NCBI GenBank assembly: GCA_021819725.1
Contig: JAKAQR010000034.1
Location: 1 to 30,709 of the forward strand
Origin: Actinomycetes bacterium
GTDB lineage: Bacteria; Actinomycetota; Acidimicrobiia; Acidimicrobiales; Acidimicrobiaceae
Reading direction: 5' to 3'
Length of the DNA stretch: 30,709 bases
A model generated the notes under the pieces. It saw only the letters and a list, made by a program, of their open reading frames with translations, did not search any database and was not told the origin of the DNA. Below are positions 14,306-30,709 of this stretch, piece after piece; position 1 is the first letter of the stretch, and each line of letters begins with the position of its first letter. The position numbers and the translations under genes are program-made.

Positions 14306-14311
14306 TGAGGT

Positions 14312-14779
14312 ATGGATGATCTGGGTAGACGGATTCGGACGGCGCGGGTGGGAGCTGGTTTATCACAAGCGCAGCTTGCTCGTCGGGCCGGTACGTCCCA
14401 GCCAGCGGTCAATCGCTATGAGAAAGGTCGGAAAGTTCCCTCCGAGGAGACTGCGGAGCGCCTGTTGATGGCTTGCCGTGCCGACATTCGTCCGAGCGAA
14501 CTCTTGGCGAACAACCGGGAACGCGTGCGAAGTTTGGCGAGAGCGCATGGCGCAGAGCGTGTACTTGTATTCGGGTCGGTCGCACGAGGTGAAGATAACG
14601 CTGATTCAGACCTCGATTTACTTGTCGAGATCCCTACGGATCGCATTCGCCTGTTTGAGCTCTTCACCCTTGGGCACGAGATTAGCGAAATTCTTGGCAT
14701 CAAGGTCGACATCGGCACACCTGAGATGTTGAGGCCAAGCATCCGAGAGCGAGTGTTGGCTGAAGCTCGACCACTGTGA
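14312..14779 (+). CDS. mntA: MntA-type antitoxin: XRE domain fused to minimal nucleotidyltransferase
   Basis: The 155-residue protein has an XRE helix-turn-helix at residues about 5-60 (RIRTARVGAGLSQAQLARRA .. TSQPAVNRYEKG). A minimal nucleotidyltransferase domain follows with the complete signature GSVARGEDNADSDLD, i.e. G88 S89 and D100 x D102. In MntA/HepT systems (type VII toxin-antitoxin) the MntA protein transfers AMP to a tyrosine of the HepT toxin and silences it. Here the next gene is a HepT with the target motif, starting in a 4-base overlap (GTGA). The fused DNA-binding domain suggests the antitoxin also represses its own operon. Confidence 0.88.
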   Translation: MDDLGRRIRTARVGAGLSQAQLARRAGTSQPAVNRYEKGRKVPSEETAERLLMACRADIRPSELLANNRERVRSLARAHGAERVLVFGSVARGEDNADSDLDLLVEIPTDRIRLFELFTLGHEISEILGIKVDIGTPEMLRPSIRERVLAEARPL

Positions 14780-16119
14780 CACGGTCCAACCGCCGCGATG
14801 CTGAACGTGCTAACGATATCCTCGGTGCGATTGCAAAGATCGGGCGTTGGCGCTCCAAACATAACTCGAGTGACGACATGTTTCGCTCTGCAGTCATGCG
14901 TGAGCTCGGTGTCATCGGAGAGGCCGCCAATGCTCTGAGCGACGAGTTTAAGGAGCGGCGCCCAGAGATCCCTTGGCGAAATATTGTTGATCTGCGCAAC
15001 GTACTTGCCCATCACTATTGGGATACTGCCTGGGCACTTATCGAACAGATACTCGATGACGAGCTCGAGCAGCTTCGTCGATCGGTTGATACTCCTAGCG
15101 TCTGCGAAATTCTTCAGATACCCCAGAGCCAACCGAAGCCTCGGCGGTTCATCCTGATGGACGGTGTCATCGGTGGATGCCGCGGGCGCGCGCCGAGTGT
15201 GATTTGCCGTTGGGCCACGCTGGAGGATGTCGTAGGAGGGCTGTCGGTCCGAAGGGATGAATCGGTTTGGGCCTTCCAGGTTTTACGGGTACCTCTCACG
15301 CTGTCGAACGAGATCTTTTCGTCGTCAAGTGTGGCTGTTAGGGGATGCACAATCAAGGATGTTGATGAGTTGCAGGTGGCTGCATCTCACGAACCATGTG
15401 AAGGTGTGTCGATCGACGGATGCGGAAGAGGAGGTTGCAGGGGCCATCGTGACGAATATGCAGATCTTTTTGCCTCGCCTCAGCGGTTGAATCTTATGGT
15501 CCATTGCCGAGCGGTATCATTAGAATCTGCTCGGGGGATTTGGGGTGTGGATCGCAGTATGCCGTTGGTGAGCGAAGTGGGTGCATTGAATGTACAACCC
15601 AATCGGATTCTGGTAGCAGGGGTGTCTGGATCAGGCAAGTCCTCCTTGTGTCGTCAGCTCCATATCCAACTGGCCCTTCCCTACGTGGAACTTGACAGCC
15701 TCTTTCATGGACCCAACTGGAGCGTGCGGACGAGCTTTGAAGCTGAGGTGGATGAGTTCATCTCTCAAGATTGTTGGGTGCTGGAATGGCAGTACGATCA
15801 GGTTCGCCAGCGACTCCTCTCACGGGCCGAACTATTGATCTGGCTCGATTACCCTCTCGTTGTGGTGATGAAGAGGGTGATCTGGCGTACCATCCGACGC
15901 AACATGAGGCACGAACCGCTCTGGAATGGCAATGTCGAGCCTCCACTGTGGACGATCTTGACCAATCCGGAACATATCATACGCTGGGCTTGGCGCACCC
16001 GGGCAAGCTATCGGGGGCGTATCCGTCAGCTCCTCACTGATTACCCAGCCCTTCCCATTCTCCGAATCACCGATCCGCGTGATGCGCGAAGAGTACCGGA
16101 GGCGCTTCGGTCGTCGTGA
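14776..16119 (+). CDS. hepT: HepT (HEPN) toxin frame running without a stop into a P-loop kinase
   Basis: A single open frame of 447 residues begins with GTG overlapping the mntA stop. Residues 1-117 are a HEPN-fold HepT RNase: RELGVIGEAANALSDEFKER, then R74-NVLA-H79-H-Y81, a perfect RX4HXY motif in which R and H are catalytic and Y is the AMP acceptor. Residues about 120-255 look unlike any family and have the character of translated spacer. Residues about 262-447 form an adenylate-kinase-like P-loop protein: Walker A GVSGSGKSS, VELDSLFHGPNW, LLIWLDYPLVVVMKRVIWRT, WNGNVEPP, EHIIRWAWRT. Kinases of this type are normally separate proteins. Either the HepT stop was lost, or two genes happen to share a frame, with the kinase starting at GTG 15547 or ATG 15559. 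Confidence 0.75.
   Translation: MTRSNRRDAERANDILGAIAKIGRWRSKHNSSDDMFRSAVMRELGVIGEAANALSDEFKERRPEIPWRNIVDLRNVLAHHYWDTAWALIEQILDDELEQLRRSVDTPSVCEILQIPQSQPKPRRFILMDGVIGGCRGRAPSVICRWATLEDVVGGLSVRRDESVWAFQVLRVPLTLSNEIFSSSSVAVRGCTIKDVDELQVAASHEPCEGVSIDGCGRGGCRGHRDEYADLFASPQRLNLMVHCRAVSLESARGIWGVDRSMPLVSEVGALNVQPNRILVAGVSGSGKSSLCRQLHIQLALPYVELDSLFHGPNWSVRTSFEAEVDEFISQDCWVLEWQYDQVRQRLLSRAELLIWLDYPLVVVMKRVIWRTIRRNMRHEPLWNGNVEPPLWTILTNPEHIIRWAWRTRASYRGRIRQLLTDYPALPILRITDPRDARRVPEALRSS
15559..16119 (+). CDS. P-loop adenylate-kinase-like protein (alternative separate start)
   Basis: If the kinase is independent of HepT, ATG 15559 gives 186 residues starting MPLVSEVGALNVQPNRILVA. A GTG at 15547 would add four residues. 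The Walker A motif GVSGSGKSS lies at residues 21-29, close to the N-terminus as in this family, which favours a separate start. TTGCCG (15506) and TATCAT (15516) upstream are too close together to be a standard -35/-10 pair. The substrate is unknown. Related proteins are annotated as adenylate kinase or topology-modulation (FlaR-like) proteins. Confidence 0.55.
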   Translation: MPLVSEVGALNVQPNRILVAGVSGSGKSSLCRQLHIQLALPYVELDSLFHGPNWSVRTSFEAEVDEFISQDCWVLEWQYDQVRQRLLSRAELLIWLDYPLVVVMKRVIWRTIRRNMRHEPLWNGNVEPPLWTILTNPEHIIRWAWRTRASYRGRIRQLLTDYPALPILRITDPRDARRVPEALRSS

Positions 16120-16166
16120 GCAGCGAAGACCTTGCAGGAGATGTTGCGGGTGAGATCATCGGTTCG

Positions 16167-16754
16167 TTAGGAGTGTTCGAACTCGAGCCCGCCCTCGTAG
16201 GGTAATCCGAGATCGGGGGCGGTGATGAGCGCCACGAAGGGGACCGGTGCGACGACCCAGGAGGCGCTCCCGCCACGATCGACGATCGCAAGTGTCTGTA
16301 CAACTCTCGCCCCGGTCGCCTCAACCGCCTCGATCGCGGCTTTCAGCGAGGTCCCCCGAGAAGGGGTGTCTTCGACGACACAGACGCGATCTCGCTCGGT
16401 GAGGTTGCCTGCGATGCGACCACCCTGTCCGTACTCCTTGGGCTCCTTGCGGACCGAGAAGGCACCCAGGTTTCGCCCATCGGCTTGCGCGATCGCGGCA
16501 GTGGCGAAGGCGATTGGGTCGGCCCCCATCGTCAGTCCACCGATGGTCGTTACCTCGTCGGCGAGTGCCGCCAGGGTGAGCTGGGCGGTACGAAAGAGGG
16601 TTGGAGGCCGACAGATCGCTCGCTTGGTATCGATAAACCAGGTCGAGTGAGCACCAGACTTTAAGACAAAATCACCATAGGTAATGGCGTACTCTTTGAT
16701 GCTTGCGATCAACTCTGCTCGCGCTGCTGCTACGTCAGCGGGCGTTAACTCCAT
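16167..16754 (-). CDS. pyrE: Orotate phosphoribosyltransferase
   Basis: PyrE joins orotate and PRPP to make orotidine 5'-phosphate in pyrimidine synthesis, in the cytoplasm. The 195-residue protein has the usual length. The PRPP-binding loop reads VCVVEDTPSRGTSL, and the catalytic lysine-rich loop FSVRKEPKEYGQGG precedes it. The N-terminal FVLKSGAHSTWFIDTKRAIC block is typical of actinobacterial PyrE. The start lies 10 bases inside the end of purM, so it is the last gene of a purF-purM-pyrE operon. It converges on the kinase gene with 47 bases between and no clear terminator. Confidence 0.95.
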   Translation of the reverse strand: MELTPADVAAARAELIASIKEYAITYGDFVLKSGAHSTWFIDTKRAICRPPTLFRTAQLTLAALADEVTTIGGLTMGADPIAFATAAIAQADGRNLGAFSVRKEPKEYGQGGRIAGNLTERDRVCVVEDTPSRGTSLKAAIEAVEATGARVVQTLAIVDRGGSASWVVAPVPFVALITAPDLGLPYEGGLEFEHS

Positions 16755-17749
16755 CGTGCTCTGTCATCTCCTTCTTCAATGCGACCGATCTCGACCGAGC
16801 CGAGATGGGAGTCAAGGATTACTGTTGCCTTCTCTGGCGCGGCGACCAGCGCCATGCCAATGCCGAGGTTGAAGGTTCGTCGCATCTCGGCGAGTGGTAC
16901 CGAACCATCGCTCATCAACTGGGTAAAGACGCTTGGCCATTGCCAGGTGGTCGGGTCAATGGTGGCACTCAGTCCTTCCGGAATCACTCGAGCGAGATTG
17001 TTCACCAACCCACCGCCGGTTGTGTGGCTGGCAGCATGGAGAAGTGTGTCGTCGATGAAGGTGAGCATCTGTGGGGCATAGAGGACCGAGGGGGCGATGA
17101 GTTCCTCGTAGAGTGCCAGCTCGCCCTTTGTAGCCACCCCGTCGCTGACATGGGTGAGCAGATCAGCGTAGATGGCACGTACCAACGAGAAGCCGTTGGA
17201 ACGAAGATTCGGAGAGGGGAGGCCGATGATGCGGTCACCGGGTCGCACATGCTCAGCACCGATCGCCGTCGCTGGGTCCACGAGGCCAACCGCAAAGCCG
17301 GCAAGGTCGACTTGGTCGGGGGCCATCGAACCTGGGTGTTCGGCGATCTCACCACCGATGAGCGCGGTGTGAGCCGACTTGAGTGCCCTCGCCATTGATG
17401 CCACCAGGGTTGCGATCAGCGTTGGTTCGTTCTTGCCGACGGCAAGATAGTCGAGGAAGAAGAGAGGGTGGGCCCCCGTGCAGACTAGGTCATCAAGGCA
17501 CATCGCTACCAGATCCTGACCGATCCCTTCCCAACGACCGCCAGCCCGAGCGACCTCGGTCTTCGTGCCTACTCCGTCGGTGGTGGCGACCAGCGTCGGG
17601 GTGCCCTCGCCGCCGATACGGAAGAGGCCGCCGAAGCCGCCGAGGTCGGAGAGGACGTGGGAGTTATAGGTACTCTTGACCAAGGCTGTTATTGCCTTGA
17701 CCGCCTCCTCAGCGTTGACTAAGTCGACGCCAGCTTGCTGGTAGTCCAC
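16745..17749 (-). CDS. purM: Phosphoribosylformylglycinamidine cyclo-ligase (AIR synthetase)
   Basis: PurM closes the imidazole ring: it converts FGAM and ATP to AIR in purine synthesis. The 334-residue length is normal. Family blocks are visible in order: LVATTDGVGTKTEVA, the GQDLVAMCLDDLVCTGAHPL metal/ATP region, ALIGGEIAEHPG, GLPSPNLRSNGFSLVR and HTTGGGLVNNLARVIP near the C-terminus. The start is a GTG at 17749 with AAAGGAC upstream, 11 bases after the purF stop. It overlaps pyrE by 10 bases. Confidence 0.96.
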   Translation of the reverse strand: MDYQQAGVDLVNAEEAVKAITALVKSTYNSHVLSDLGGFGGLFRIGGEGTPTLVATTDGVGTKTEVARAGGRWEGIGQDLVAMCLDDLVCTGAHPLFFLDYLAVGKNEPTLIATLVASMARALKSAHTALIGGEIAEHPGSMAPDQVDLAGFAVGLVDPATAIGAEHVRPGDRIIGLPSPNLRSNGFSLVRAIYADLLTHVSDGVATKGELALYEELIAPSVLYAPQMLTFIDDTLLHAASHTTGGGLVNNLARVIPEGLSATIDPTTWQWPSVFTQLMSDGSVPLAEMRRTFNLGIGMALVAAPEKATVILDSHLGSVEIGRIEEGDDRARWS

Positions 17750-17760
17750 GGATGTCCTTT

Positions 17761-19212
17761 CTAGAGCACCTGTTGACCGGCGAGATGGGTGCTGAGTTCG
17801 ACAGGATAGCTACCCGTCAAACAGGCATCACAGAAGCCCTCTGGAGTGCCGATCGCCTTACGGAGATCGCCTAACTGGAGGTAGGCGAGACTGTCTGCGC
17901 CGAGGATCTCGGTGATCTCTTCCACGCTGTGGTTCGCCGCGATGAGATCGGGTCGGTTTGGCGTGTCGATCCCGTAGAAGCAGGGCCAACGATAGGGGGG
18001 CGAGGAGATGCGAAGATGCACCTCGGCCGCACCCGCTTGCTTTAAGAGACGGACGATCGACTTGGTGGTCGAGCCCCGAACGATGGAGTCATCGACGACG
18101 ACGACGCGTTTACCCCGCACATTTTCCTCAAGCACGTTGAGTTTGCGGCGGATCGCGTCCTGGCGACTCTTGATGCCAGGGTTGATAAAGGTCCGCCCGA
18201 TGTAGCGGTTCTTCACCAGCCCTTGACCATAGGGAATGCCAGAGGCTAGTGCATAGCCTTCGGCGGCAGGTACTCCTGAGTCAGGGACACCCATTACCAT
18301 GTCCGCTGCAACTGGGAGGGTATGAGCGAGATACTCGCCCATCGCCCGTCGGGTGCCGTGTACCTCCTTGCCAAGGAGCTTGGTGTCGGGACGAGCAAAG
18401 TAGACGAACTCAAAGATGCAAAGGTGAGAGGGCGAAGCCTCGGGCGAGGGGAAACTGTGGGCGCCATCTGCGTCGATGATCACGACCTCGCCTGGCTCGA
18501 TCTCGCGAACGAACTCAGCGCCAATGACGTCCAGGGCCGGAGACTCTGAGGCGATGACCCATCCATTCGGTGCAATGGTGCCGAGGCAAAGAGGTCTAAA
18601 ACCATCGGGGTCGCGTGCACCGATGATGCGTTCACCATCGAGCATGGCAAGGGAGTAAGCTCCACGCAGTTCGATGAGAGCCCCACGCACGGCATCCGCA
18701 TAGTCTTGGACCGAAGTCGGCCGTGATCGCGCGACGGAGACCGAGATGAGTTGAGCGATTATTTCGGTGTCGGAGGGCTGTCGGGCGATGGTGTCGAAGA
18801 GGCGATCAGCGAGCTCGAAGGAGTTCGTGAGGTTGCCGTTATGCGCAACGGCCACACCGTACTCACCGCTGGCTCGGAAGATGGGCTGTGCGTTATGCCA
18901 ACTGCGGTCCCCGGCGGTGGCGTAGCGTGTGTGTCCGATCGCCATGTCTCCCGGCAAGGACGCGAGCGTTGAGTCATCAAAGACCGCACTGACGAGGCCG
19001 AGGTTCTTGACTACGGTGATCTCTCCGTTGTCAGCGACCGCCATGCCGGCGGACTCCTGACCGCGATGCTGGAGTGCGTAGATGCCGTCGAAGGTTAGGT
19101 AGGAGACGGCTTCGTTTGGCAACGAGATACCGAAGACCCCACAAGCCTCCTCCGGATGGTCACGTTCGAGTTGATCGTGCTCCGGATTGTCGTTCTGGGG
19201 ATCTTCGATCAC
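17761..19212 (-). CDS. purF: Amidophosphoribosyltransferase
   Basis: PurF makes phosphoribosylamine from PRPP and glutamine, the first committed step of purine synthesis. The 483-residue protein shows the N-terminal-nucleophile glutaminase domain, with Cys24 (EEACGVFGI) exposed after removal of a 23-residue propeptide, and a phosphoribosyltransferase domain with the PRPP loop VVVVDDSIVRGSTT. Cysteines in HLCIFEFVYFARP, RWPCFYGIDTP and FCDACLTG match the four ligands of the [4Fe-4S] cluster in the Bacillus-type enzyme, so an oxygen-sensitive cluster form is likely. The GTG start at 19212 has no ribosome site but has TAGGCT 9 bases upstream. It is the first gene of purF-purM-pyrE. Confidence 0.96.
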   Translation of the reverse strand: MIEDPQNDNPEHDQLERDHPEEACGVFGISLPNEAVSYLTFDGIYALQHRGQESAGMAVADNGEITVVKNLGLVSAVFDDSTLASLPGDMAIGHTRYATAGDRSWHNAQPIFRASGEYGVAVAHNGNLTNSFELADRLFDTIARQPSDTEIIAQLISVSVARSRPTSVQDYADAVRGALIELRGAYSLAMLDGERIIGARDPDGFRPLCLGTIAPNGWVIASESPALDVIGAEFVREIEPGEVVIIDADGAHSFPSPEASPSHLCIFEFVYFARPDTKLLGKEVHGTRRAMGEYLAHTLPVAADMVMGVPDSGVPAAEGYALASGIPYGQGLVKNRYIGRTFINPGIKSRQDAIRRKLNVLEENVRGKRVVVVDDSIVRGSTTKSIVRLLKQAGAAEVHLRISSPPYRWPCFYGIDTPNRPDLIAANHSVEEITEILGADSLAYLQLGDLRKAIGTPEGFCDACLTGSYPVELSTHLAGQQVL

Positions 19213-19221
19213 GGTATGTTA

Positions 19222-19227
19222 AGCCTA
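19222..19227 (-). promoter_or_regulatory. -10 box TAGGCT for purF
   Basis: On the minus strand TAGGCT is followed by 9 bases and the GTG start at 19212, consistent with a leaderless purF mRNA. Confidence 0.5.
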
Positions 19228-19449
19228 GCATCTCTCGACCACCTCACGATGGGTCGCGCTCTTTTCTGGCACCTTTGTGGAGCAAAATCTCGTTCTAACA
19301 CGAGTGATCTCACTGAGGTGGTTCTTGGTAAGGAGCTCGATCGCCGCGCAGCGTCAACGATGCGGTCGGTTTGATGTTCGACGTGCCTGTCGCGCCAGCA
19401 GGCCCAATCGACACCGTGGTGACTCATCCGAGAGCAGTGTTGACAACAT

Positions 19450-19539
19450 GATCCTGAATGGGACGATCCTGAATGGGACGATCCTGGCTGGGACGATCCG
19501 GACTGGGACGATCCGGACTGGGACGATCCTGGTGAGGGT
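19450..19539 (+). repeat. 15-bp tandem repeat, five copies plus a decayed sixth
   Basis: GATCCTGAATGGGAC starts at 19450 and 19465 (identical), then GATCCTGGCTGGGAC at 19480, GATCCGGACTGGGAC at 19495 and 19510 (identical), and a diverged unit at 19525. The pattern of pairwise identity suggests stepwise duplication. Confidence 0.92.
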
Positions 19540-19927
19540 CACCTTGGTGGTGACGCACCGCGCATCGATAGATGGGTTACTCCTTGGGGTCAAACTTCGG
19601 GTGTTGATTCTCGTTTCAGATGTCGGTGGTCGCGTCAGCGACCCAAGCCCCCAGCGAGCTTGACCTCAGTGGCCTTGTCACAGGTGCCGGGTACCTACAA
19701 GGCAAAGGGCGGTGCGTCGCTTTGTGCAGACCCCGTGCTCCATGGATCGTTGTGCTCACGCGCAGCTGGCGTGCGTTGCGATCTGCTCCGAGCTCGCCGG
19801 TCGGCCGCCGAAGGAGATGACCTCCGCGTTAGGCGATCTGATCGTGCCAAACAGCACTGCACGATTCGTGGAGGACCTCCGGTTGTAGCAAGAGTCGTTG
19901 CTTCCCGACGGCTTTGAGAGCGAAGGC

Positions 19928-19933
19928 TAGACT
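19928..19933 (+). promoter_or_regulatory. -10 box TAGACT for the PHP gene
   Basis: TAGACT is followed by 7 bases and the ATG at 19941. No ribosome site is present, so a leaderless start is likely. Confidence 0.5.
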
Positions 19934-19940
19934 TACCTCT

Positions 19941-20798
19941 ATGCAAGCTCGTTGCGACCTTCATCTTCACTCGGACGCCTCGGACGGGTCGGTGCCTCCT
20001 GATCAACTGGCGGCGAGTCTTGGACATGTCCATCTAGCAATATTGACCGATCACGATACTCTTGCCGGGAGCGCGGCTTTCGCGAAGGTGATCGATTCAG
20101 AGCTCCCACCTCCCGATGGCGTTGAGCTCTCGTTGCGATGGGATGGTGGCACCTTTCATCTTCTTGTCTACGGGTATTCACTCGCTCGCACCGAGCTCGC
20201 GGCGAGGATCGATGCACTGGCAATAGCGCGTCGAAATCGTAATCTTGAACTGTTGGATCGTGCCAATCAGCATGGGCTTGCGATCACCGAGGAGGAGGTG
20301 CTCGCGGCGGCGGGAACAACGGACTTTGAAGCCAAGAGTGTGGGCCGTCCTCATTTTGCGAGGGTGCTGGTGGACCATGGTTATGCCGAGAGTATCCAGG
20401 ATGCCTTCGACCGGTACTTGGCAAAGGGGAGGCCCCTCTACAGCCCAAAGACGTTGTTTGGCTTCGATGAGATTGGACCACTCTGTGCCGATCTCGGGTT
20501 GGTGCCGGTTGTCGCACACCCCCTCAGTCTTGGTCTGCCCCTCGCTTCGTTGGTTACCACCTTGGTTGGCTTCCGTCGGTTAGGGCTCGTCGGACTGGAA
20601 TGCCTCTATGCAGGATATACACCAGACCAACGTGCAGAACTCACCCAGATCGCCCAAGACGCAGGTCTGCTGGTCACCGGCGGCTCTGATTATCACGGCA
20701 CCTTCAAGCCAGGACTTGAACCATTGATGGGCTTCGGTGACTTGGTCGTCCCAGCTGAGGTCGGCGATCGACTGCTCGAGTCACTGAACCGTCCTTGA
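19941..20798 (+). CDS. PHP-domain phosphoesterase (YciV/RNase AM-like)
   Basis: The 285-residue protein is a metal-dependent phosphoesterase of the PHP family. Metal-binding motifs appear in the usual order: DLHLHSDASDGS at residues 6-17, LTDHDT near 35, the inserted helical middle region with KSVGRPHFARVLVDHGY, then VVAHPLSLG and GGSDYHG near the end. This arrangement fits the subgroup that includes 3',5'-nucleoside bisphosphate phosphatase / 5'-3' exoribonuclease AM, though the substrate is not shown by sequence. The start at 19941 is chosen over an upstream candidate at 19914 because the family begins directly at this methionine and a -10 box sits 7 bases before it. Two tRNA genes follow. 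Confidence 0.9.
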   Translation: MQARCDLHLHSDASDGSVPPDQLAASLGHVHLAILTDHDTLAGSAAFAKVIDSELPPPDGVELSLRWDGGTFHLLVYGYSLARTELAARIDALAIARRNRNLELLDRANQHGLAITEEEVLAAAGTTDFEAKSVGRPHFARVLVDHGYAESIQDAFDRYLAKGRPLYSPKTLFGFDEIGPLCADLGLVPVVAHPLSLGLPLASLVTTLVGFRRLGLVGLECLYAGYTPDQRAELTQIAQDAGLLVTGGSDYHGTFKPGLEPLMGFGDLVVPAEVGDRLLESLNRP

Positions 20799-20815
20799 GT
20801 TTTCTGCTCGCTGCA

Positions 20816-20843
20816 GTGACAGAGAGAACGGGTCTTATATACT
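20816..20843 (+). promoter_or_regulatory. Promoter for the tRNA pair
   Basis: GTGACA (20816-20821) and TATACT (20838-20843) are separated by 16 bases. The -10 box ends 25 bases before tRNA-Asp. Confidence 0.5.
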
Positions 20844-20868
20844 GATCTACTTGCAAGCGATTGCGTAG

Positions 20869-20946
20869 GGACCCGTGGTGCAGCTCGGAGTGCACGCCGG
20901 CCTGTCAAGCCGGAGGTCGCGGGTTCAAATCCCGTCGGGTCCGCCA
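20869..20946 (+). tRNA. tRNA-Asp (anticodon GTC)
   Basis: The acceptor GGACCCG pairs with CGGGTCC. The D stem GTGC/GCAC, the anticodon stem CCGGC/GCCGG with loop CTGTCAA, and the T stem GCGGG/CCCGT (one G-U) with loop TTCAAAT are all complete. The 3' CCA is encoded (20944-20946). Confidence 0.97.
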
Positions 20947-20960
20947 CTATCGCTCGTTAT

Positions 20961-21036
20961 GGTCGGATAGCTCAGCAGGTAGAGCGCACGCCTGAAAAGC
21001 GTGAGGTCACCGGATCGACGCCGGTTCCGACCACCA
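20961..21036 (+). tRNA. tRNA-Phe (anticodon GAA) with unusual T-loop
   Basis: The acceptor GGTCGGA pairs with TCCGACC. The anticodon stem CACGC/GCGTG encloses loop CTGAAAA. The T stem ACCGG/CCGGT encloses loop ATCGACG, with A instead of T at position 54. CCA is encoded (21034-21036). It lies 14 bases after tRNA-Asp, so both are probably co-transcribed. Confidence 0.95.
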
Positions 21037-21186
21037 GTAGCTTATACCCCATGTTCGGGTACGAGCTGTTTAGCCGTCTGTCCCGTTGAAGAGCAGTCCA
21101 TGTGGGGCGTTTTCGGGATAGACCTACGACATGGAGCTTGGAATAACAGGGCGCGTGTGGTGCAGCTGATTTCCTGCGAGACCTTC

Positions 21187-21192
21187 TAAGCT
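21187..21192 (+). promoter_or_regulatory. -10 box TAAGCT for the TetR gene
   Basis: TAAGCT lies 6 bases before the ATG at 21199. The GAGG between them is too close to the start to be an effective ribosome site, so a leaderless start is likely. Confidence 0.45.
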
Positions 21193-21198
21193 GAGGCG

Positions 21199-21813
21199 AT
21201 GGAATCTAGTGACAAAGGTAACCCTCGGCGTGAGCAATTGACCGAACAGGCGGCCGAATATCTCAAGACGAACGGCCTTGCCTCGCTGACCTATCGCAAG
21301 CTCGCCGAGGAACTCGGTGTGGCACCGAACACACTTGAACACCACTTTGGCACCAAGGACAAGCTCCTTGAGCAGTTGCTTGCACGCCTTGCGGATGAAC
21401 AGCGCGGTGGATTGCAAGCGACGCTGACTGAGAACGAGGCCGGACCTGAACTCGTATCTCGTTACTTCCGAGCGGCGATGGTCGATATCGCAAAGCCTGA
21501 GAACGAGGGCGCGGATCAGCTCTTCTTCGAGCTCGTCGGGGCGAGCGCGCGAGAGCGTGAACTCTATGGCGAGTTTCTCTCTCATGCCATGAATGACTGG
21601 ATTGATTTTATCTCTGTCGAGCTGGTTGGGCGTATAGAGATCCCTGAGGATCGGGCTCGAAGCGTTGCGCACTTGATTTTGGCCACCATCCGGGGGCTCA
21701 TGTTGAGTCGTGTCATGGTAGAACCAGACGAGTATCCCTTTTTAGATGAGGCGGCAAATCTGTTAGCGCCACTGCTCGAAAGCTTGGTCCGAGCCGAGGC
21801 TGGAACTTCCTGA
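21199..21813 (+). CDS. TetR-family transcriptional regulator
   Basis: The 204-residue protein has an N-terminal TetR DNA-binding domain at residues about 10-60: LTEQAAEYLKTNGLASLTYR followed by KLAEELGVAPNTLEHHFGTK, with the helix-turn-helix and the H-F-G-T-K end of helix 4 clear. The C-terminal part is helical and probably binds an unknown small ligand and dimerises. It precedes the ABC transporter operon by 650 bases on the same strand and might control it, but no operator is proven. A possible site is the TTGTACTAA tandem pair at 22168-22185. Confidence 0.92.
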   Translation: MESSDKGNPRREQLTEQAAEYLKTNGLASLTYRKLAEELGVAPNTLEHHFGTKDKLLEQLLARLADEQRGGLQATLTENEAGPELVSRYFRAAMVDIAKPENEGADQLFFELVGASARERELYGEFLSHAMNDWIDFISVELVGRIEIPEDRARSVAHLILATIRGLMLSRVMVEPDEYPFLDEAANLLAPLLESLVRAEAGTS

Positions 21814-22167
21814 TTCGTGTTGGTGCCTGTGCTCCTGGATTGGGGCGAGGGCATTCCCTGAGCTCTTTCCGGTCTACGGCATGCTCACATCGAGCGTGGT
21901 CACTCTCCATTCCGCTCGGGTACATTGGAGTGCCCACGAGCTCAGAATCTGCTGCGCGCGTGCTGACAGGGTCCGATACGTTGGCCGTTGCGGCTGTTCT
22001 AAGTTGACACAATGACGCGCCTCACCAGCTGAAGCTCCGGTTCCCGGTCGCTGCTGGCACTGAGCGTGGCCAAAAAGGCCTCGCTTCTCCTCAAACGATG
22101 ACGGTTATGGGGAAGCCGATCGCAGACCCAAATCCGGCGATTTTACTCCAAGGCAGCTTTGGCTAGT

Positions 22168-22185
22168 TTGTACTAATTGTACTAA
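22168..22185. repeat. Tandem 9-bp repeat TTGTACTAA, possible operator
   Basis: Two exact head-to-tail copies of TTGTACTAA lie 81 bases upstream of the -35 box. Each contains the palindrome GTAC. Regulator binding is a guess. Confidence 0.3.
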
Positions 22186-22265
22186 ATAAGACTGCAGTCA
22201 TGGCGTAAAGTTACTGTTTGGTAATCTATGAATCGTTTTCTTTATTACACTTTTGTTGGCAGAAG

Positions 22266-22294
22266 TTGACAATTGTGTTACGGGCAAGTATCTG
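22266..22294 (+). promoter_or_regulatory. Sigma-70-type promoter of the ABC transporter operon
   Basis: TTGACA (22266-22271), a 17-base spacer, then TATCTG (22289-22294). A perfect -35 box with optimal spacing makes this the best housekeeping promoter in the window. Confidence 0.7.
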
Positions 22295-22463
22295 TAATGA
22301 TAACCAAGTGGGGAACCGAGCTTGATGTTGATCGCTCACTGGCGTTCGCGAGATTCGCAATGAGGCGAGTAAAACGGCTCTATTGATCATGGGGATGATC
22401 GCAAAGGATGCAGAATCTAACGATTCATGGCCTTTGTGGATAGCTGTAGGGGGAAAAGTCAGT

Positions 22464-23741
22464 ATGACGAAGAAGTTCAAGAAGTCACGTCAACGCGTCG
22501 TTGCAATCGCCGGTGTAGCCATGGCCGCTGCGCTACTCGCCGCTTGAGGTTCGAGCAGCTCTAGCAGCTCTACAAGCTCATCGAGTTCGAAGAGCAAGTT
22601 CACTGAGACGGTCACCATTGGTGTCGATACCGCGACCAGTGGATTCTTTGGTGAGTCCGGTGTCGACGGTGATGATGGCATGACGATGGCGGTTAACGCG
22701 ATCAACAAGAGCGGGGGTCTCCTCGGCAAAAAGGTGTTGGTCGATTTTCGTAACGATAACGCATCGGTACCGACCGCCATCTCAAATACCCAGAGCCTTA
22801 TTCAGGATGACCATGTGTCCGCGCTCTTCGGCGCGTCTACCAGTTCAACCGTCGGTGCCATGGAGTCGTTGGCAACAAAGTATCAATTACCATTGATGAT
22901 CTGGAATGGTAACGATATCGCTACTGTGACCACCGATTATTCAAAGTATGCATTCCAGTTGCAGCCGAATACCTACATGGAGCCGTTGGGTGCTGCCCAG
23001 TACTTATCGAAATTGCCATACCGCCGGTACTACTTCATTACGCCTGATTATTCCTTTGGCCGGGACGACATTGATTCGTTTCAGGCTTCGATGAAGAGTC
23101 TTGGTATCAAGCTCGATAACCTTGGAACGAGTTATACCCAGATCGGTCAGCCGAGCTTCACTTCAGCGATCTCCGCTGCGTTAGCCACGCATCCGCAGAT
23201 GATCTTCCTGGGGATCTTCGGTGGAGATGAGGTCACGTTCATCAAACAGGCGGAGAGCTACAATCTCTTCTCGAAGACGGCGGTGTTTGGCCCAACGGGT
23301 ACCGATACGCTGCTGGCCTTGGGCAAGTCAACGCCGACGAAGAACCTCTACCTCAATGACCGAGCTCCGTTCTTCGCTATCAAGACGGCGGCGATGAAGA
23401 CCTTTACCAATCAGTTCCATACCTTGTATGGCTCGTGGCCTTCAGAGTGGGGCGTGTTGGGGTATTCGGCGGTGCAGAGTTGGGCGCAGGGGGTAGAGAA
23501 GGCAAAGTCCTTTACCGGCAATGCGGTCTCGGCGGCGTTGAAGGGTGATACGGTTCATACCCTCAAAGGCAGCTTCCAGTTCCAGGCCTGTGATAACCAG
23601 GCGGTCGTACCGGATTACTTTGGGAAGGTGGCCAGTACGGTCTCAGCAAAGTATGGCTTCCCGTTGTTGACCGACCTGTTCGTGTCGAGCCCAACCAAGA
23701 CCCTGATGTCCTGTTCACAGGCGCTTAAGCTCCGAGGTTAA
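22464..23741 (+). CDS. livK: Branched-chain amino-acid/amide ABC transporter binding lipoprotein with in-frame TGA at the lipobox cysteine
   Basis: This is a type I periplasmic-binding-protein-fold solute receptor (Peripla_BP_6). The ATG at 22464 follows AGGGGGA. The first 27 residues form a lipoprotein signal: basic MTKKFKKSRQR, then a hydrophobic core ending LLAA. The next codon, where the lipobox needs Cys (L-A-A-C), is TGA (22545-22547), one base from TGC or TGT. The same frame then continues open: a Ser-rich linker, VTIGVDTATSGFFGESGVDG, LFGASTSSTVGAMESLA and so on to 23741. A shorter reading from ATG 22680 would lack the signal and the first strand. Either a nonsense mutation, a sequencing error or recoding explains it. 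The ligand is not known. Confidence 0.82.
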
Positions 23742-23755
23742 CGGACCGGAAATCC

Positions 23756-23795
23756 CAGGTGATGGAGCGTGCAGCTTGGTGCGCTCCATCACCTG
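23756..23795 (+). terminator. 14-bp hairpin between binding protein and permease genes
   Basis: CAGGTGATGGAGCG (23756-23769) pairs perfectly with CGCTCCATCACCTG (23782-23795), with no U-run. It begins 15 bases after the stop. Such hairpins often stabilise the upstream message or partly terminate, so that the binding protein outnumbers the permease. Confidence 0.6.
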
Positions 23796-23821
23796 TGTGA
23801 ACATGAAGGGGGACACGCTAC

Positions 23822-24700
23822 TTGGGAAGTGTATTGGTTACCATCTTGACCGGACTTGCTGAGGCTGGGACCCTGTTCCTCGTTGGTGCAGGACTGACGC
23901 TCATCTTTGGTTCGCTTCGTCTCATCAATGTCGCTCATGGCAGCTTCTACATGTATTCGGCGTTTGTTGTCTCTACCGTGGTCGGGGCGTCAAGCTCCGA
24001 GCTGCACTTTTGGGGTGCGTTGATTATCGCGCCCCTTGTGATTGCCGCGTTAGGTGTTCTCGTCGAGGTCACCGTCATGCGACGCCTTTATCGTCGTGAA
24101 CATCTCTCGCAGATGCTGGCGACCTTTGGGTTGTTCTATGTCTTTGCAGATCTCGGTCTCCTGATTTGGGGATCATCGGATCGCACGGTGTCGGCTGCTC
24201 CGTCGGTTGCGGGCAGCCTCTCCGTCTTTGGGCAGTCGTTCCCGAAGTACTCGGTAGTTATTATCGTGGTCGCACTCGCGGTGGGTTTCGTGATGTTTGC
24301 ACTGTTGCGCTTCACGACGCTCGGGTGGAAGATCCGAGCTGCGGTGGAGGACAACGAGTTGTTGGCCTCGACCGGGGTGAATGTCTCGCGGATCTACCTC
24401 TTTGTCTTTACCTTTGGAGCGCTTCTCGCTGGGATCGCTGGTGCAATCGCGGCTCCGCAGATCTCGATCTCCGCAGGTCTCGACCAGTCCATTCTCATCG
24501 ATGCCTTTATTATTTCGGTCATCGGCGGCCTGGGTTCGATCTCGGGTGCTGCGGTGGCTGCTGTTTTGATCGGACTCGTCGATGCCTTTGGTGCTCGTTA
24601 TCTGCCGCCTCTCGCTCCCATCAGCGTCTATGTCGTGATGATTGTGGTGCTCGTGGTGCGGCCGAGTGGCATCTTTGGCCGTGCCGGAACAGGAGACTAA
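23822..24700 (+). CDS. livH: ABC transporter permease LivH
   Basis: The 292-residue inner-membrane permease belongs to the branched-chain amino-acid/urea-type ABC family. About eight hydrophobic segments are visible. Family blocks include GLTLIFGSLRLINVAHGSFY near the start, the cytoplasmic loop for the ATPase (WKIRAAVEDNELLASTGVNV) and IGGLGSISGAAVAAVLIG near the end. It starts at TTG 23822, with AAGGGGG 9 bases upstream. It ends 4 bases before the next gene (livM, ATG 24705). Confidence 0.92.
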   Translation: MGSVLVTILTGLAEAGTLFLVGAGLTLIFGSLRLINVAHGSFYMYSAFVVSTVVGASSSELHFWGALIIAPLVIAALGVLVEVTVMRRLYRREHLSQMLATFGLFYVFADLGLLIWGSSDRTVSAAPSVAGSLSVFGQSFPKYSVVIIVVALAVGFVMFALLRFTTLGWKIRAAVEDNELLASTGVNVSRIYLFVFTFGALLAGIAGAIAAPQISISAGLDQSILIDAFIISVIGGLGSISGAAVAAVLIGLVDAFGARYLPPLAPISVYVVMIVVLVVRPSGIFGRAGTGD

Positions 24701-24704
24701 CACG

Positions 24705-25124
24705 ATGGCGATTGTTCGATCACGCAAGCCAGCGGCCCCAGCAGGTGGCATCGCTGGAACGGCCAAGGTCGATCGGGGACCCTTAGTCTGGGCCCTCATT
24801 GGGATTGGCCTGTTAATCGTCGCCACCTTCGTGCTGAGCTCAGGGCAGATCTCGATCTTGGAGTCGGTGCTCATCATGGCAGTGTTCGCTGTATCTACCA
24901 ATATCGTGGTCGGCTACAGCGGCCTGGTGACCTTTGGACAGTCTCTGTTTTATGGAGTCGGTGCCTATACCCTTGCCCTTGGCTGGTACCACTATAAGTT
25001 ACCGTTCTGGATGCTCTTCATTCTCGCCCCCATTCTGGGAGCGATAGCGGCGGTTCCGGTTGGTCTCATTGCCCTGCGTACGCGGCGGTGGTTCTTTGCA
25101 CTGGTGACCTTGGCCTTCACGTAG
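24705..25124 (+). pseudogene. livM: livM permease, N-terminal part ending at an in-frame TAG
   Basis: From ATG 24705 the frame encodes the first half of a LivM-type permease: a hydrophobic segment WALIGIGLLIVATFVLSS, the conserved TNIVVGYSGLVTFGQSLFYG block and RTRRWFFALVTLAFT. It then meets TAG at 25122-25124. Relatives have glutamine here (LAFAQ..), so a CAG to TAG change explains it. The same frame continues at once with LVHTIVEQAYSYTQGATGIF, so only this codon is wrong. Without readthrough the permease is truncated to about 139 residues and should be inactive. Confidence 0.85.
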
Positions 25125-26576
25125 TTAGTACATACCATCGTCGAACAGGCCTATAGCTACACCCAAGGGGCAACGGGGATCTTTGGGAATATGGTGCCAC
25201 AGAATATCTCGGGAGTGACCTCTGGCTACCTCTTCATCGCGCTCATCGCGATAGCGATCATGTACTTCATCATGATCTCCCCCTTTGGGGTGACGTTGAA
25301 GTCGATTCGCGAGAACCGGCGAAGAGCGGCTGCGGTGGGGGTCAATGTGTACAAACACCAGCTGATCGGTTTTGTGATCTCCGGTGCTGGCGCGGGGATC
25401 GCCGGGGCTCTGTTGGTTGTCCAAAACTCCTCGGCGTATCCACACCTGTTCAACTGGCTCGAGGCGGGCAACCCCTTACTGGCAGCCTTAGTTGGCGGCA
25501 TTGGGAGTTTTATGGGTCCCGTCATCGGGGCCGTCATCTTCGAGGTCGGCAAGCTTGAGATCAGCCAATACACCTCGCAGTGGGAGTTGGTGCTCGGAAT
25601 CGTGCTCGTCGGTGTCGTCCTACTTGCCCCAGACGGGCTCATTGGACTAGGGAGCCCGATCAAACGGTTTGTGTTGACCAGGCTTGGACGCAGGACTCCT
25701 GTTCCGGAAGATGCCGAGGGGTTAGCCGCGCATGACGTCTTCGATGAGAAGATCTTTGACGATAACGCCGTTGATGACAGACCCGTTGACGAGAATGGGG
25801 GGACTGAGATGGTGGAGCCGATCCTCGCTGTGGACTCCCTGGTTAAAGAGTTTGACGGTTTTCGAGCAGTTGATGGCGTTTCGTTCGCAGTCATGCCTGG
25901 TGAGATTCGTGCCGTCATCGGCCCAAATGGGGCAGGGAAGTCGACGCTATTTTCCCTGATCATCGGTGAGTTACGTCCAACATCCGGAAAGGTCACCCTC
26001 GATGGACGCGACATCACGGGTCTGTCGACCCACAAGCTGATGATGCGTGGGCTCGGTTGTGCCTTTCAAGCCACCAATGTCTTTTGGCGATTGAGTGTGC
26101 GTGAGTGCCTTGAGGTGGCGGTCACGTCGCGACGGCGACATTCCGAGAAGCTCTTTGGCAAGTTTGCTCGTGACGTCGACGAGGAAGTGGCCTCCCTCCT
26201 TGATCAGGTGGGACTGTCGGGGCTCGCGCAGGCAACTTCACGTGATCTCTCCCATGGTGACCAGCGTGCCTTGGAGGTCGCTCTGGCGTTGGCGATGAAA
26301 CCCAAGGTGTTGCTGCTCGACGAGCCAACGGCAGGGATGTCTCCGTCGGAGACTTCGCGAGCGGTGAACTTGGTCAGGGAACTTGTGGAGACGAACGGCA
26401 TTACGGTGCTCATTGTGGAACATGATGTCAGCGTTGTCTTCTCGCTCGCCGATGTCGTGACGGTCATGCACCAGGGACAGACGATTGCTGAGGGGTCGCC
26501 GGATGAGATCCGCAAGAACCCAACCGTAGTTGAGGTGTATCTGGGTACGTCTGAGTTTAGTAAGGGGCTTTCGTGA
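25125..26576 (+). CDS. livG: LivM C-terminal half fused to LivG ATPase
   Basis: This continues the livM frame after the TAG. Residues up to about 25640 are the remaining membrane segments (YFIMISPFGVTLKSIRENRR, SGAGAGIAGALLVVQ, LAALVGGIGSFMGPVIGAVI). An acidic linker leads into a full ABC ATPase: Walker A GPNGAGKST, Q-loop CAFQATNVFW, signature LSHGDQRALE (usually LS.G.Q), Walker B VLLLDEP and the switch histidine IVEHD. A LivM-LivG fusion is known in related operons. An internal ATG at 25809, preceded by GGGGGGA, could still give a separate 255-residue LivG despite the TAG. ATG 25191 is the first methionine after the stop. It ends in a GTGA overlap with livF. Confidence 0.85.
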   Translation, partial: LVHTIVEQAYSYTQGATGIFGNMVPQNISGVTSGYLFIALIAIAIMYFIMISPFGVTLKSIRENRRRAAAVGVNVYKHQLIGFVISGAGAGIAGALLVVQNSSAYPHLFNWLEAGNPLLAALVGGIGSFMGPVIGAVIFEVGKLEISQYTSQWELVLGIVLVGVVLLAPDGLIGLGSPIKRFVLTRLGRRTPVPEDAEGLAAHDVFDEKIFDDNAVDDRPVDENGGTEMVEPILAVDSLVKEFDGFRAVDGVSFAVMPGEIRAVIGPNGAGKSTLFSLIIGELRPTSGKVTLDGRDITGLSTHKLMMRGLGCAFQATNVFWRLSVRECLEVAVTSRRRHSEKLFGKFARDVDEEVASLLDQVGLSGLAQATSRDLSHGDQRALEVALALAMKPKVLLLDEPTAGMSPSETSRAVNLVRELVETNGITVLIVEHDVSVVFSLADVVTVMHQGQTIAEGSPDEIRKNPTVVEVYLGTSEFSKGLS

Positions 26577-27274
26577 TCTTAGAACTGAACTCCATCAACA
26601 CCTACTATGACCGCAGCCATGTCCTGCAAGGCGTCTCTCTCGCGATCGAGGCGGGTGAAGTGGTTGGACTCTTGGGTCGTAATGGGGCAGGAAAGACGAC
26701 GACTCTTCGCAGCGTGACGGGTCTGACCCCACCTCGCTCGGGAACGGTGAGTTTTGAAGGTACCCAGATCCAGGGAAAGCCGGCGTATCGGATCGCGAAT
26801 ATGGGAGTGGGACTGGTCCCGAGTGGGAGGCGGGTCTTTGGAGATCTCACGGTGCGACAGAACTTGGTCTTGGCCGCTAAGGCTGCGCGCAAGAGCGAGA
26901 CCGCCTGGGATATCGACCGTGTCGTCGCGGCCTTTCCAAAGCTTGCAATGCTGATGGATCGTCGGGCTGGCGTACTCTCGGGTGGAGAGGCGCAGATGGT
27001 CAAGCTGGGGAGGGCCCTGCTCGGCAATCCTCAGCTCCTGCTCCTCGACGAGCCCTCTGAAGGCCTTGCCCCCACCATTGTGGAAGAGGTCGGGCGACAG
27101 CTCCATGAACTCAAGGACCTTGGTATGTCGATGCTGATCAGTGAGCAGAACATGGGTTTTGCCCTCTCCATCATCGACCGAGGCTATGTCCTTGAGAAGG
27201 GAAGGATCCGTCTTGAGGCGACGGCTGTTGACCTTCGCTCGAGTGATGAGGCGCGTCATCTGCTCGGTGTCTAG
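26573..27274 (+). CDS. livF: ABC transporter ATPase LivF
   Basis: The 233-residue protein is the second ATPase of the branched-chain amino-acid-type importer. All motifs are present: Walker A GRNGAGKTT, Q-loop region GVGLVPSGRRVFGDLTVRQN, signature LSGGEAQMVKLGRALL, Walker B LLLLDEP and SEQN in place of the usual switch histidine, as is typical for LivF. The GTG start overlaps the previous stop by 4 bases. It is the last gene of the operon and appears intact. Confidence 0.95.
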   Translation: MILELNSINTYYDRSHVLQGVSLAIEAGEVVGLLGRNGAGKTTTLRSVTGLTPPRSGTVSFEGTQIQGKPAYRIANMGVGLVPSGRRVFGDLTVRQNLVLAAKAARKSETAWDIDRVVAAFPKLAMLMDRRAGVLSGGEAQMVKLGRALLGNPQLLLLDEPSEGLAPTIVEEVGRQLHELKDLGMSMLISEQNMGFALSIIDRGYVLEKGRIRLEATAVDLRSSDEARHLLGV

Positions 27275-27386
27275 TATTCGGCCACGGCCCGGAGCTGGTC
27301 CTTCTCTTGGTGGGTTGTGATCGACAGCGAATGAGTTCGTTGTGAAGATCGGCGTGGAGCGAATCGTAGCGGTCCCATCAATTTTG

Positions 27387-28220
27387 CTAGTTGGAGGCGA
27401 TGGACGTGCGCTTTGTGGCCGCGGTCACGAGAATGACCTCGGTGGTGAGCCGATACTCGCCCTCGCGCACGATGTGTTCGCGGATCCGTTCACCGAAGGC
27501 TGGTAAGAGGTCGTAGCCAAGTTCATTGGTCGCCATCGCCGCCGTTGTTGAGGCGGCATAACTGACGAGCGCTGCTGGCTCGGATAGGGTGATGGAACCG
27601 GCGAGTAGGCGATAGTCGACGTCGATAAAACTCTCCTGCACCTCTGCCAGGAGGCGGTCGGTGGGTAACTCGAGATTCATCAGTGACAGATCCGAATTGG
27701 TCGTGTCAAGTCCGCGGTCGTCGAGGAGCTCGCCCCAGAGCAGCCGTGCTTCGATCAGATGTGATTCGGTGTTGGAGGTGACGATGAGTCGCCCCGCCGA
27801 GTTGAGCACCCGTGCAAACTCCGCGATCGCGTTTCGAGGGCGGGGAAGATGATAGAGCATATGGGCGGCGAGCACTCGGTCAACGGAGCCAGTCGCGATG
27901 GGTAGCGCCTCTGCATCCGACTGGGCTCTGGCCCAGACGCCATCCACGCCTCCTAGCATTCCCTTCGAGAGATCGGTGGCAAGGACATGAGCACCGGCTC
28001 GGGTCAGGGCCCGCCCGTGGCGTCCATTGCCACTTCCTACGTCGAGGATGCGAAGGTTCTCTACGGGAGCACATGCGTTGAGCACCTCGTATTCGAGGTC
28101 GATTTTTGGGCTCTGGTAGTCATAGATGGCGATCCGGGCCCCAAGTCGACTCGAATCCACATAGGCATGGTCGTTCAAGTAGTGATGATCGACTCGACGG
28201 GGACGGCGCGGTTCAGACAT
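27387..28220 (-). CDS. Class I SAM-dependent methyltransferase
   Basis: The 277-residue protein has the SAM-binding glycine loop ILDVGSGNGRHGRAL, the acidic end of strand 2 (VLATDLSKGML), motif II DAEALPIATGSVDRVLAAHM and motif III NSAGRLIVTSN. The substrate is unknown; the overall layout is that of small-molecule Methyltransf_11 enzymes. I chose ATG 28220 (MSEPRRPRR) over GTG 28241. A 14-bp sequence covering the start region is duplicated 16 bases upstream, so the exact start is uncertain. The gene follows the hydroxyacyl-CoA dehydrogenase by about 40 bases on the same strand and converges on livF. Confidence 0.88.
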   Translation of the reverse strand: MSEPRRPRRVDHHYLNDHAYVDSSRLGARIAIYDYQSPKIDLEYEVLNACAPVENLRILDVGSGNGRHGRALTRAGAHVLATDLSKGMLGGVDGVWARAQSDAEALPIATGSVDRVLAAHMLYHLPRPRNAIAEFARVLNSAGRLIVTSNTESHLIEARLLWGELLDDRGLDTTNSDLSLMNLELPTDRLLAEVQESFIDVDYRLLAGSITLSEPAALVSYAASTTAAMATNELGYDLLPAFGERIREHIVREGEYRLTTEVILVTAATKRTSIASN

Positions 28221-28235
28221 AGCGCGGTTCAGACA
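28206..28235 (-). repeat. 14-bp direct repeat across the methyltransferase start
   Basis: GCGCGGTTCAGACA (plus-strand reading) occurs at 28206-28219 and 28222-28235. The ATG start sits in the first copy and the second gives an out-of-frame GTG. Confidence 0.8.
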
Positions 28236-28261
28236 CGGCACTCTTGCGTCGGCGCATTCGG

Positions 28262-29131
28262 TTAGTCTTCGGCCTTTGGAGGGTAGTGGTAGAAGCCCTC
28301 ACCAGATTCCTTCCCAAGTTTTCCCTGATCGAGAAGGTGTTCCTTCAGATAGGTAGCAAACTCTTGTTGCGTCTGATCACCGGCGATCGAGACCGCATAG
28401 GCGGTTCGGATGCCGATCACATCAAAGATCTGGAAGGGTCCGCTTGGCGCACCGGTCGCGGTTCGCCAGGTCATATCGATCATCTCGGGTTCGGCGATGC
28501 CCCGCATAAAGAGACTGCTGGCAGCCTGTAGCCAGGGGACGAGCAACGAATTGAGGAGATAGCCAGCCTGCTCCTTCTTGATCTCGATGGGGACCATCCC
28601 GATCTCGGTGGCAAACTGGACGACTCGTTGATAGATGGTCAGATCGGTCGCCGATGTCCCCATGACCTCGGCCGTGTTGTGAATCCAGACCTCGTTGGCA
28701 AAATGCAACGCGAGAAACTTATCAGGCCGCCCCGTCGATTCGGCAAGGTCACTTGGCAACAGCGTCGAGGTGTTGGTCGCAATGACGGTCGTAGGCGAGA
28801 GGAGCGGGGCAAGTTGCCGGTAGAAGCTGCACTTGAGTTCTAGACTCTCAGGCACCGCCTCGATCACGAGTTCAGCGCCGGTCGCAGCCTCCTTGAGCTC
28901 GCTGGTGAGCTTGATCCGATCGAAGGCAACTCCAGCAGCATCTGCACCATGCGTACCAGGGTTGCGAGCATAGCGGTCTCGTAGCTGTTCGAGACGTTGG
29001 CGACCAGCAGCCAAGGCCTTGGCATTGATGTCATAGCCGGTGACGCTTGCTCCTGAATAGGCGACCTGGTAGGCGATCTGTGCACCCAATACCCCAAGAC
29101 CAGCGACCATCACGTGTGTAAAAGACTTCAT
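28262..29131 (-). CDS. 3-hydroxyacyl-CoA dehydrogenase
   Basis: The 289-residue protein is an NAD-dependent dehydrogenase of the 3-hydroxybutyryl-CoA dehydrogenase family. The Rossmann motif MVAGLGVLGAQIAYQVAYSG is at residues 8-27, with GYDINAKAL (the NAD-specific aspartate) after it. LVIEAVPESLELK, TNTSTLLPSDLA and LALHFANEVWIHNTAEVM are visible; the latter carries the active-site histidine and belongs to the subgroup with HFAN rather than HFFNP. GFYHYP closes the C-terminal domain. The pathway could be fatty-acid or butyrate-type metabolism. The ATG at 29131 has TACGCT 6 bases upstream, again leaderless in appearance. Confidence 0.93.
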   Translation of the reverse strand: MKSFTHVMVAGLGVLGAQIAYQVAYSGASVTGYDINAKALAAGRQRLEQLRDRYARNPGTHGADAAGVAFDRIKLTSELKEAATGAELVIEAVPESLELKCSFYRQLAPLLSPTTVIATNTSTLLPSDLAESTGRPDKFLALHFANEVWIHNTAEVMGTSATDLTIYQRVVQFATEIGMVPIEIKKEQAGYLLNSLLVPWLQAASSLFMRGIAEPEMIDMTWRTATGAPSGPFQIFDVIGIRTAYAVSIAGDQTQQEFATYLKEHLLDQGKLGKESGEGFYHYPPKAED

Positions 29132-29137
29132 AGGCCA

Positions 29138-29143
29138 AGCGTA
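29138..29143 (-). promoter_or_regulatory. -10 box TACGCT for the hydroxyacyl-CoA dehydrogenase gene
   Basis: On the minus strand TACGCT is followed by 6 bases and the ATG at 29131. It lies directly after the stop codon of the upstream peptidase gene (29144-29146). Confidence 0.4.
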
Positions 29144-30709
29144 CTACTCATGAAGAACAGCGGTGGAGTTCACGAGTGCTCCGTTGGAACAGGGGCCACT
29201 CTGGGGAGTACCAGCGAGTTGGGTGACTTGGAAACTATCACCGGCGAGCGTCCCCGGCTGAACAGGGAGTACTTGGCAGAGATAGGTCTGTACCTCATCC
29301 GAGATTGAGCCGGTGGTGCCTATGCCAAGGTTGGTGAAGTTGACTGGAGAGTTCAGCGTAGGGACATTAAGGATTGTGTCGCTAGTGGTTGAGGGGGCCT
29401 CAGTGATCCACTCGGCTGATGCACCCGGACCGTTGTAGGGTTGCGTGGTGGTGAAGCTCGCACCGGTGGTGTCATTGATGATCTGAATCTCCCAGTTGTT
29501 CGCGTTCATGGTCTTAAAGATATTCACCGTGACTTGGTTGCCAGCGGCGACAGAGAGAGAGTTGACATTGGTCTGGACGTTGGGCAGAATCTCCCACCAT
29601 GGGTAGATCTGGTAGGTAGTACCATCACCTTGTGGTGTCAGCTCAACGCCAGCTTGAATCAGTGAACTGTTGGTCGCTCCATCGATTCCCACCCACTCCG
29701 AGAGTGAGCAACCAGGGGTCGGTTGTCCGCTGTCGCAGTATGCTGGCTGATTCGCCGCGAGCGAAGGCACGGTAAAGGTGCCGGTGATGGCGTCGAAGCT
29801 ACCAGGCTCGACGTAGTAGCCAGCCCAGTTGGAGGATGCCTGTGGGGTGGCGCTTGACAACTGGCCCTGGAGGGGATTGGTGACGGAGAGTTCAATCGAT
29901 TGGGTGGTGGTAGTGCCATGGGAATCGGTGGCGGTAATAGTAACAGATGCCAGCCCGGCGACGTCCGGTGTCCCCTCAAGGGTGCCATTCGGGGTGATCG
30001 AGAGTCCCGCCGGTAGGCCAGTTGCTGCAACCGTCACGGTGCCATCCCCGCCGCTCACGTCGATCGAACTCGTGTAAGGTTGACCGACGATCGCACCTGG
30101 CAATGCTGTGGTGGAGACCGTGGGACTGGATTGCCCGGCGACGGCAACGGCAACAATGGGGGCAGAGATTTTCTGCCCTCCGAGGCTGCCATAGAAGTTT
30201 GCATCGCCAAAGTCAAAGACCCCACCATCGGCCGCCACGAGCCAATACCCGCCACCATTCGGGACTGCCGCCATCCCCACGATCGGAGCAGCGAGTGGAT
30301 GTGCTCCACCAAGACCAGTGATTCCATAGGTGTAGGTGGAGCCATAGAAGTTTGCATCGCCAAAGTCAAAGACCCCACCATCGGCCGCCACGAGCCAATA
30401 CCCTCGACCATCCTTGGTGGCGACACCGCCCACGATCGGAGCAGCGAGTGGATGTGCTCCACCAAGACCAGTGAGTCCATAGGTGTAGGTGGAGCCATAG
30501 AAGTTTGCATCGCCAAAGTCAAAGACCCCACCGTCTTTGGCGATCAGCCAATAGCCCTTGCCGTTTGGAGTCGGGATGATTGCCACGATCGGAGCAGCGA
30601 GTGGATGTGCTCCACCAAGACCAGTGAGTCCATAGGTGTAAGTGGAGCCATAGAAGTTTGCATCGCCAAAGTCAAAGACCCCACCATCGGCCGCCACGAG
30701 CCAATACCC
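29144..30709 (-). CDS. Secreted G1 (eqolisin) glutamic peptidase with N-terminal 51-residue repeats (partial)
   Basis: The reading frame enters from the right edge, so the N-terminus and signal peptide are outside. The visible 521 residues start with more than three tandem repeats of the type [20 protein letters not shown], spaced 51 residues. A putative Ig domain ([20 protein letters not shown] .. GLPAGLSI) follows, then a G1 peptidase domain: [44 protein letters not shown] and [13 protein letters not shown]1 enzymes use a Gln/Glu pair; candidates are the Gln in LIQAG and a Glu in AEWITE. They act at low pH, consistent with an acidophile's outside. The repeats presumably form a propeller-like binding module. 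Confidence 0.88.
30191..30709 (-). repeat. 153-bp tandem repeats encoding 51-residue modules
   Basis: The marker ATAGAAGTTTGCATCGCC starts at 30191, 30344, 30497 and 30650, exactly 153 bp apart. Neighbouring units are nearly identical at DNA level, differing mainly in the short segment after the conserved GAPIVG-type turn. The array continues past the window edge. Confidence 0.95.

Follow-up and report, generated by a model that had tools for sequence, protein, structure and literature searches.

A TGA codon interrupts the reading frame of a gene for an ABC substrate-binding lipoprotein exactly where the lipobox cysteine is expected, in a 30,709-nucleotide stretch of DNA from a member of the Acidimicrobiaceae (contig JAKAQR010000034.1, positions 1 to 30,709, hereafter the window). 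The question raised by this locus is whether the codon is an ordinary nonsense mutation, an error of sequencing or assembly, or a recoded UGA from which a complete lipoprotein is made.

The livK-like gene and its operon

Reading of the frame confirmed the original prediction that a TGA at the lipobox Cys codon is followed by a long open frame. From the ATG at 22464 the livK-like gene (livK in what follows) encodes a normal lipoprotein signal, MTKKFKKSRQRVVAIAGVAMAAALLAA, reaches the TGA at codon 28, resumes with GSSSSS and stays open up to a TAA at 23739-23741, which gives 426 codons with both stops counted. The part downstream of the TGA matches Peripla_BP_6 (PF13458, E 2.6e-59). Translation of livK would end after 27 codons and leave the signal peptide only, and a restart at ATG 22680, where the frame next offers a start, would yield a protein of 353 amino acids without signal peptide or lipid anchor.

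The gene belongs to a five-gene operon on the forward strand, in which a binding protein, two permeases and two ATPases were recognised by matches to PF13458, PF02653 and PF00005 (Table 1). The same set of genes, with permeases of the BPD_transp_2 type, makes up the operons of the Liv/Urt-type (HAAT) ABC importers. The window differs from these in that the genes for the binding protein and one permease are broken, and in that the matches to the named Liv/Urt NCBIfam models all fell below the curated cut-offs (four proteins, the relatives P0001 and P0028 included and livG left out).

Table 1. Features of the operon and positions of its two in-frame stops in the window.
Feature	Position	Strand	Basis
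livK-like, for an ABC substrate-binding lipoprotein; frame interrupted by TGA at codon 28	22464..23741	+	frame reading, PF13458
TGA at lipobox Cys position	22545..22547	+	frame; Cys in G004, G002 and P0001
livH-like permease, open	23822..24700	+	PF02653, E 3e-33; dN/dS 0.007 vs G004
livM-like permease, broken	24705..25808	+	TAG as codon 140; 9 bp missing near 25236; no terminator of its own
TAG, second in-frame stop of the operon, at invariant livM Gln	25122..25124	+	frame, alignment of relatives
livG-like ATPase, open, fused in frame to livM tail	25809..26576	+	PF00005, E 4.5e-32; start position by our reading of the frame
livF-like ATPase, open	26573..27274	+	PF00005, E 1.8e-30; dN/dS 0.025 vs G004

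The position of the TGA is the feature that draws attention to this gene. Counted on the codons of the same-genus genome G004, 148 single-base routes lead to a stop in livK, spread over 118 of its 425 codons, and one of them falls at the lipobox codon, so that a random nonsense mutation would strike there in about 0.7% of cases. This coincidence is mildly unlikely and was picked post hoc, and other evidence weighs more. Nor do all members of the family have the lipobox Cys: a simple pattern found it in 12 of 26 homologues, the pattern being rough and at least P0002 and P0008 being N-terminally short.

Close relatives and selection

The search for livK orthologues covered 60 genomes, the window's own included. 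Besides G000, a genome that carries the same sequence (see below), close orthologues were found only in the same-genus G004 (99% identical) and G002 (97%), and the next-nearest sequences, from G020 and G014, show 40% and 39% identity. A search of 5.8 billion clustered proteins added P0001 (425 aa), which differs from the window's frame at 3 of 425 positions, namely 28 (C vs stop), 48 (G vs E) and 73 (I vs M), and also P0002, the truncated livK product of 351 aa, which is present on 5 contigs. Inspection of the codon in close relatives, which had been put forward as a check, thus gave Cys in G004, G002 and P0001; in the two genomes the codon that corresponds to the TGA encodes Cys. A close orthologue is lacking in four of the seven genomes of the genus, which indicates that the operon is dispensable there: G001, G003 and G005 have livK matches only near 24-29% identity, and no match was found in G006, which is 83% complete. 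A distant livK paralogue (28% identity) lies on contig C28 of G000. A scan of genome contigs found no relative, and the literature search, mostly of the opening parts of abstracts, found nothing on this site.

Comparison with G004 gave dN/dS values of 0.033 for livK, 0.007 for livH, 0.081 for livM, 0.097 for livG and 0.025 for livF. These low values suggest that the proteins were constrained over most of the divergence, so that the loss must be recent, and they are equally what a working operon could show. When G002 served as outgroup, the ratio of nonsynonymous to synonymous changes in livM was 8:16 on the window branch (stop included) against 4:32 on the G004 branch (p 0.05), and for the whole operon 14:76 against 9:99 (p 0.12), with sites that show three different bases excluded, which removes the livK stop, and with codon 25125 counted on both branches. 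At most, these counts hint that constraint may have been relaxed on the window branch.

Further lesions in livM

The operon carries other lesions in its second permease gene. The ORFs 24642-25124 and 25191-26576 lie in one frame and both match the permease family; reading of the shared frame shows a TAG that corresponds to codon 140 of livM, where G004, G002 and G020 have Gln and where Gln is invariant in all ten aligned relatives. In addition, 9 bp are missing near 25236, and a 1-bp difference from G004 near 25796 removes the terminator of livM, so that the frame continues into livG. The near-identical livM protein P0028 has Gln at position 140, lacks the 9-bp loss and keeps its own terminator. 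Its remaining differences from the livM of the window are three substitutions, two of them in the aligned part and the third in the tail, which fell outside one of the alignments. P0001 and P0028 are probably encoded by neighbouring genes (the longest contig is 62,188 for both), and none of the two nonsense codons and two length changes of the window operon is found in them. The TGA and the TAG would seem to have arisen in the window lineage after its split from the lineage of P0001 and P0028. Translation of livM would end after 139 codons, leaving the importer non-functional even if LivK were made, and the LivK and LivM proteins, together with transport, are presumably absent.

These data support the nonsense mutation among the options first proposed for this site, which is strengthened by the second nonsense codon and the two length changes in livM. 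We consider it highly probable that the TGA arose by ordinary point nonsense mutation and that the operon, which is that of a Liv/Urt-like ABC importer, was recently lost by the lineage. The locus shares in-frame stops, small length changes and intact close relatives with the nonsense-mutated pseudogenes of accessory ABC-transporter operons, and differs from them only in the eye-catching position of one stop and in the still-high conservation of the proteins. We accordingly read the mutation as recent and the operon as that of an accessory transporter in decay.

Agreement between assemblies

If the stops and length changes were artefacts of sequencing or assembly, the operon of the strain would be intact. 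Contig C29 of genome G000 (95.9% complete) carries the same TGA and agrees with the window at every base of 13781-30653 (16,873 bp). The window extends 13,780 bases past the end of this contig, and because of this the two must be different assemblies. The analysis was made on assembled contigs only, the two assemblies may share reads, and protein constraint appears intact, all of which would fit an artefact. Against it stand the agreement base for base of assemblies with different ends, the presence of the truncated product on 5 contigs, and the variety of the changes, which are of three kinds (nonsense substitutions, of which there are two, the loss of 9 bp, and the change of 1 bp) and lie in two genes, livH, livG and livF being open. 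The error that the original prediction allowed for is thus improbable: the agreement of two assemblies counts against it, and the restriction to assembled contigs leaves it a small share of the probability.

The window and contig C29 diverge at 30654, inside an array (30188-30709) in which a 153-bp unit is repeated about 3.4 times; the ORF that contains this array has a Peptidase_A4 match. Where it extends past the end of contig C29, the window encodes a group II intron reverse transcriptase/maturase at 4786-6156 (RVT_1, GIIM). It also holds a 279-bp unit that occurs twice, with 100% identity, at 2158-2706 in a 1163-aa ORF (527-4018), and arrays of a 23-bp unit containing TGGTCCA at 6694-6864, 9245-9394 and, weakly, 248-311.

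The frequency of broken frames was compared between the window region and an 80-kb control stretch of G000 (C14:1-80000). In the window region, 19 frames of G004 were matched and four were flagged: livK, livM, one with a stop at codon 290 of 293, and a 157-aa frame whose match in the window is out of frame with the ORF at 12865-13428. The reverse comparison matched 17 frames and flagged two, the fused livM-livG frame and 12865-13428. In the control stretch, 63 frames of G004 were matched and six were flagged, with stops at codons 6 of 430, 225 of 234, 56 of 367, 99 of 533 and, in a poorly conserved frame, 137 of 238, plus one frame change; reversed, 64 were matched and six flagged, and here it was G004 that had the stops. 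The idea that the assembly is flooded with nonsense errors was therefore rejected, as a few other broken genes or misjudged starts exist, on both sides.

Some of the flagged loci are of separate note. The small gene at 12865-13428, on the reverse strand, matches a DUF6036/AbiEii nucleotidyltransferase, and since three frames are needed to align the corresponding part of G004 with it, G004 may have a frameshifted copy. The internal stops of the control stretch near 48447 (codon 56 of 367) and 74922 (codon 99 of 533) mark other pseudogenes or misjudged starts.

Search for the means of decoding UGA

The remaining explanation is that UGA is recoded, by selenocysteine or by a tRNA that inserts Cys or Trp, and that the lipoprotein is made. 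The exact coincidence of the TGA with the lipobox Cys and the long conserved frame downstream, with its low dN/dS, speak for recoding. An in-frame UGA where relatives have Cys is likewise a trait of selenoprotein genes, from which the present gene differs in that tRNA-Sec, SelB, SelA and SelD gave no match above cut-off and the UGA is not followed by a notable hairpin. For other bacteria, Cys tRNAs that resemble opal suppressors have been proposed.

The search for selA, selB, selC and selD that had been suggested for this site was run on all seven genomes of the genus, and none was found over the curated cut-offs. The tRNA-Sec model passed its cut-off in none of the seven (in G000, 150 of 352 first-look candidates were scored) and in 5 of 14 named genomes used as a positive control; all 15 sub-threshold matches in G000 are ordinary tRNA loci, the best being a tRNA-Ser with anticodon CGA. 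For SelB, the best match reached 206 bits against a cut-off of 242 and belongs to a 395-aa ORF of G000, which we take to be EF-Tu. SelA had no match whatsoever in the seven genomes, and SelD had weak matches below the cut-off (best 56 against 125 bits), presumably to other members of the AIRS superfamily. The same models passed their cut-offs in the named control genomes (SelB in 2 of 14, SelA in 1, SelD in 2). Folding of the 61 nt from the TGA onward, without a SECIS model, gave a z of -0.42, and 68 of 200 shuffles folded as well or better. On tRNA-Sec, SelB, SelA, SelD and this fold, selenocysteine was rejected.

The family search for tRNAs located 47 loci in G000, at all of which ARAGORN also reads a tRNA, and an anticodon for UGA (UCA), UAG or UAA is absent from all 47, in a genome that is 95.9% complete and from which a tRNA may be missing. 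A suppressor tRNA was rejected on this census. In 545,931 sampled bases, TGA ends 142 of 311 greedy ORFs of at least 250 aa, TAG 97 and TAA 72. The same sample contains eight lipobox frames, found with a strict pattern that surely misses lipoproteins, of which seven use TGC or TGT and only livK has TGA, so that a habit of placing TGA at the lipobox was rejected for this genome.

Recoding is also opposed by the relatives, which do not keep the UGA, and by livM, since a decoder of UGA would account for only one of the lesions of the operon and would leave the TAG, the 9-bp loss and the fusion to livG unexplained. The part of the original prediction that invoked recoding, whether as selenocysteine or as near-cognate insertion of Cys or Trp, thus found no support, and we regard it as exceedingly improbable. 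Of equally slight probability is a leaky allele, for which the lipobox UGA would have to be decoded, with a frequency sufficient for some lipoprotein to be made, by a near-cognate tRNA or by a suppressor tRNA whose gene lies in unassembled sequence; this reading would need separate read-through for the TAG of livM.

Meaning of the locus

Recoding at this codon, if true, would mean that a lipoprotein can be made in a new way, and the evidence opposes it. The case advises caution: when a stop is found at a striking position, the rest of the operon and the relatives should be checked before recoding is proposed. As an ordinary nonsense mutation, the finding is by itself of little weight, and represents an accessory transporter under loss that was caught early, with its protein sequence almost intact.
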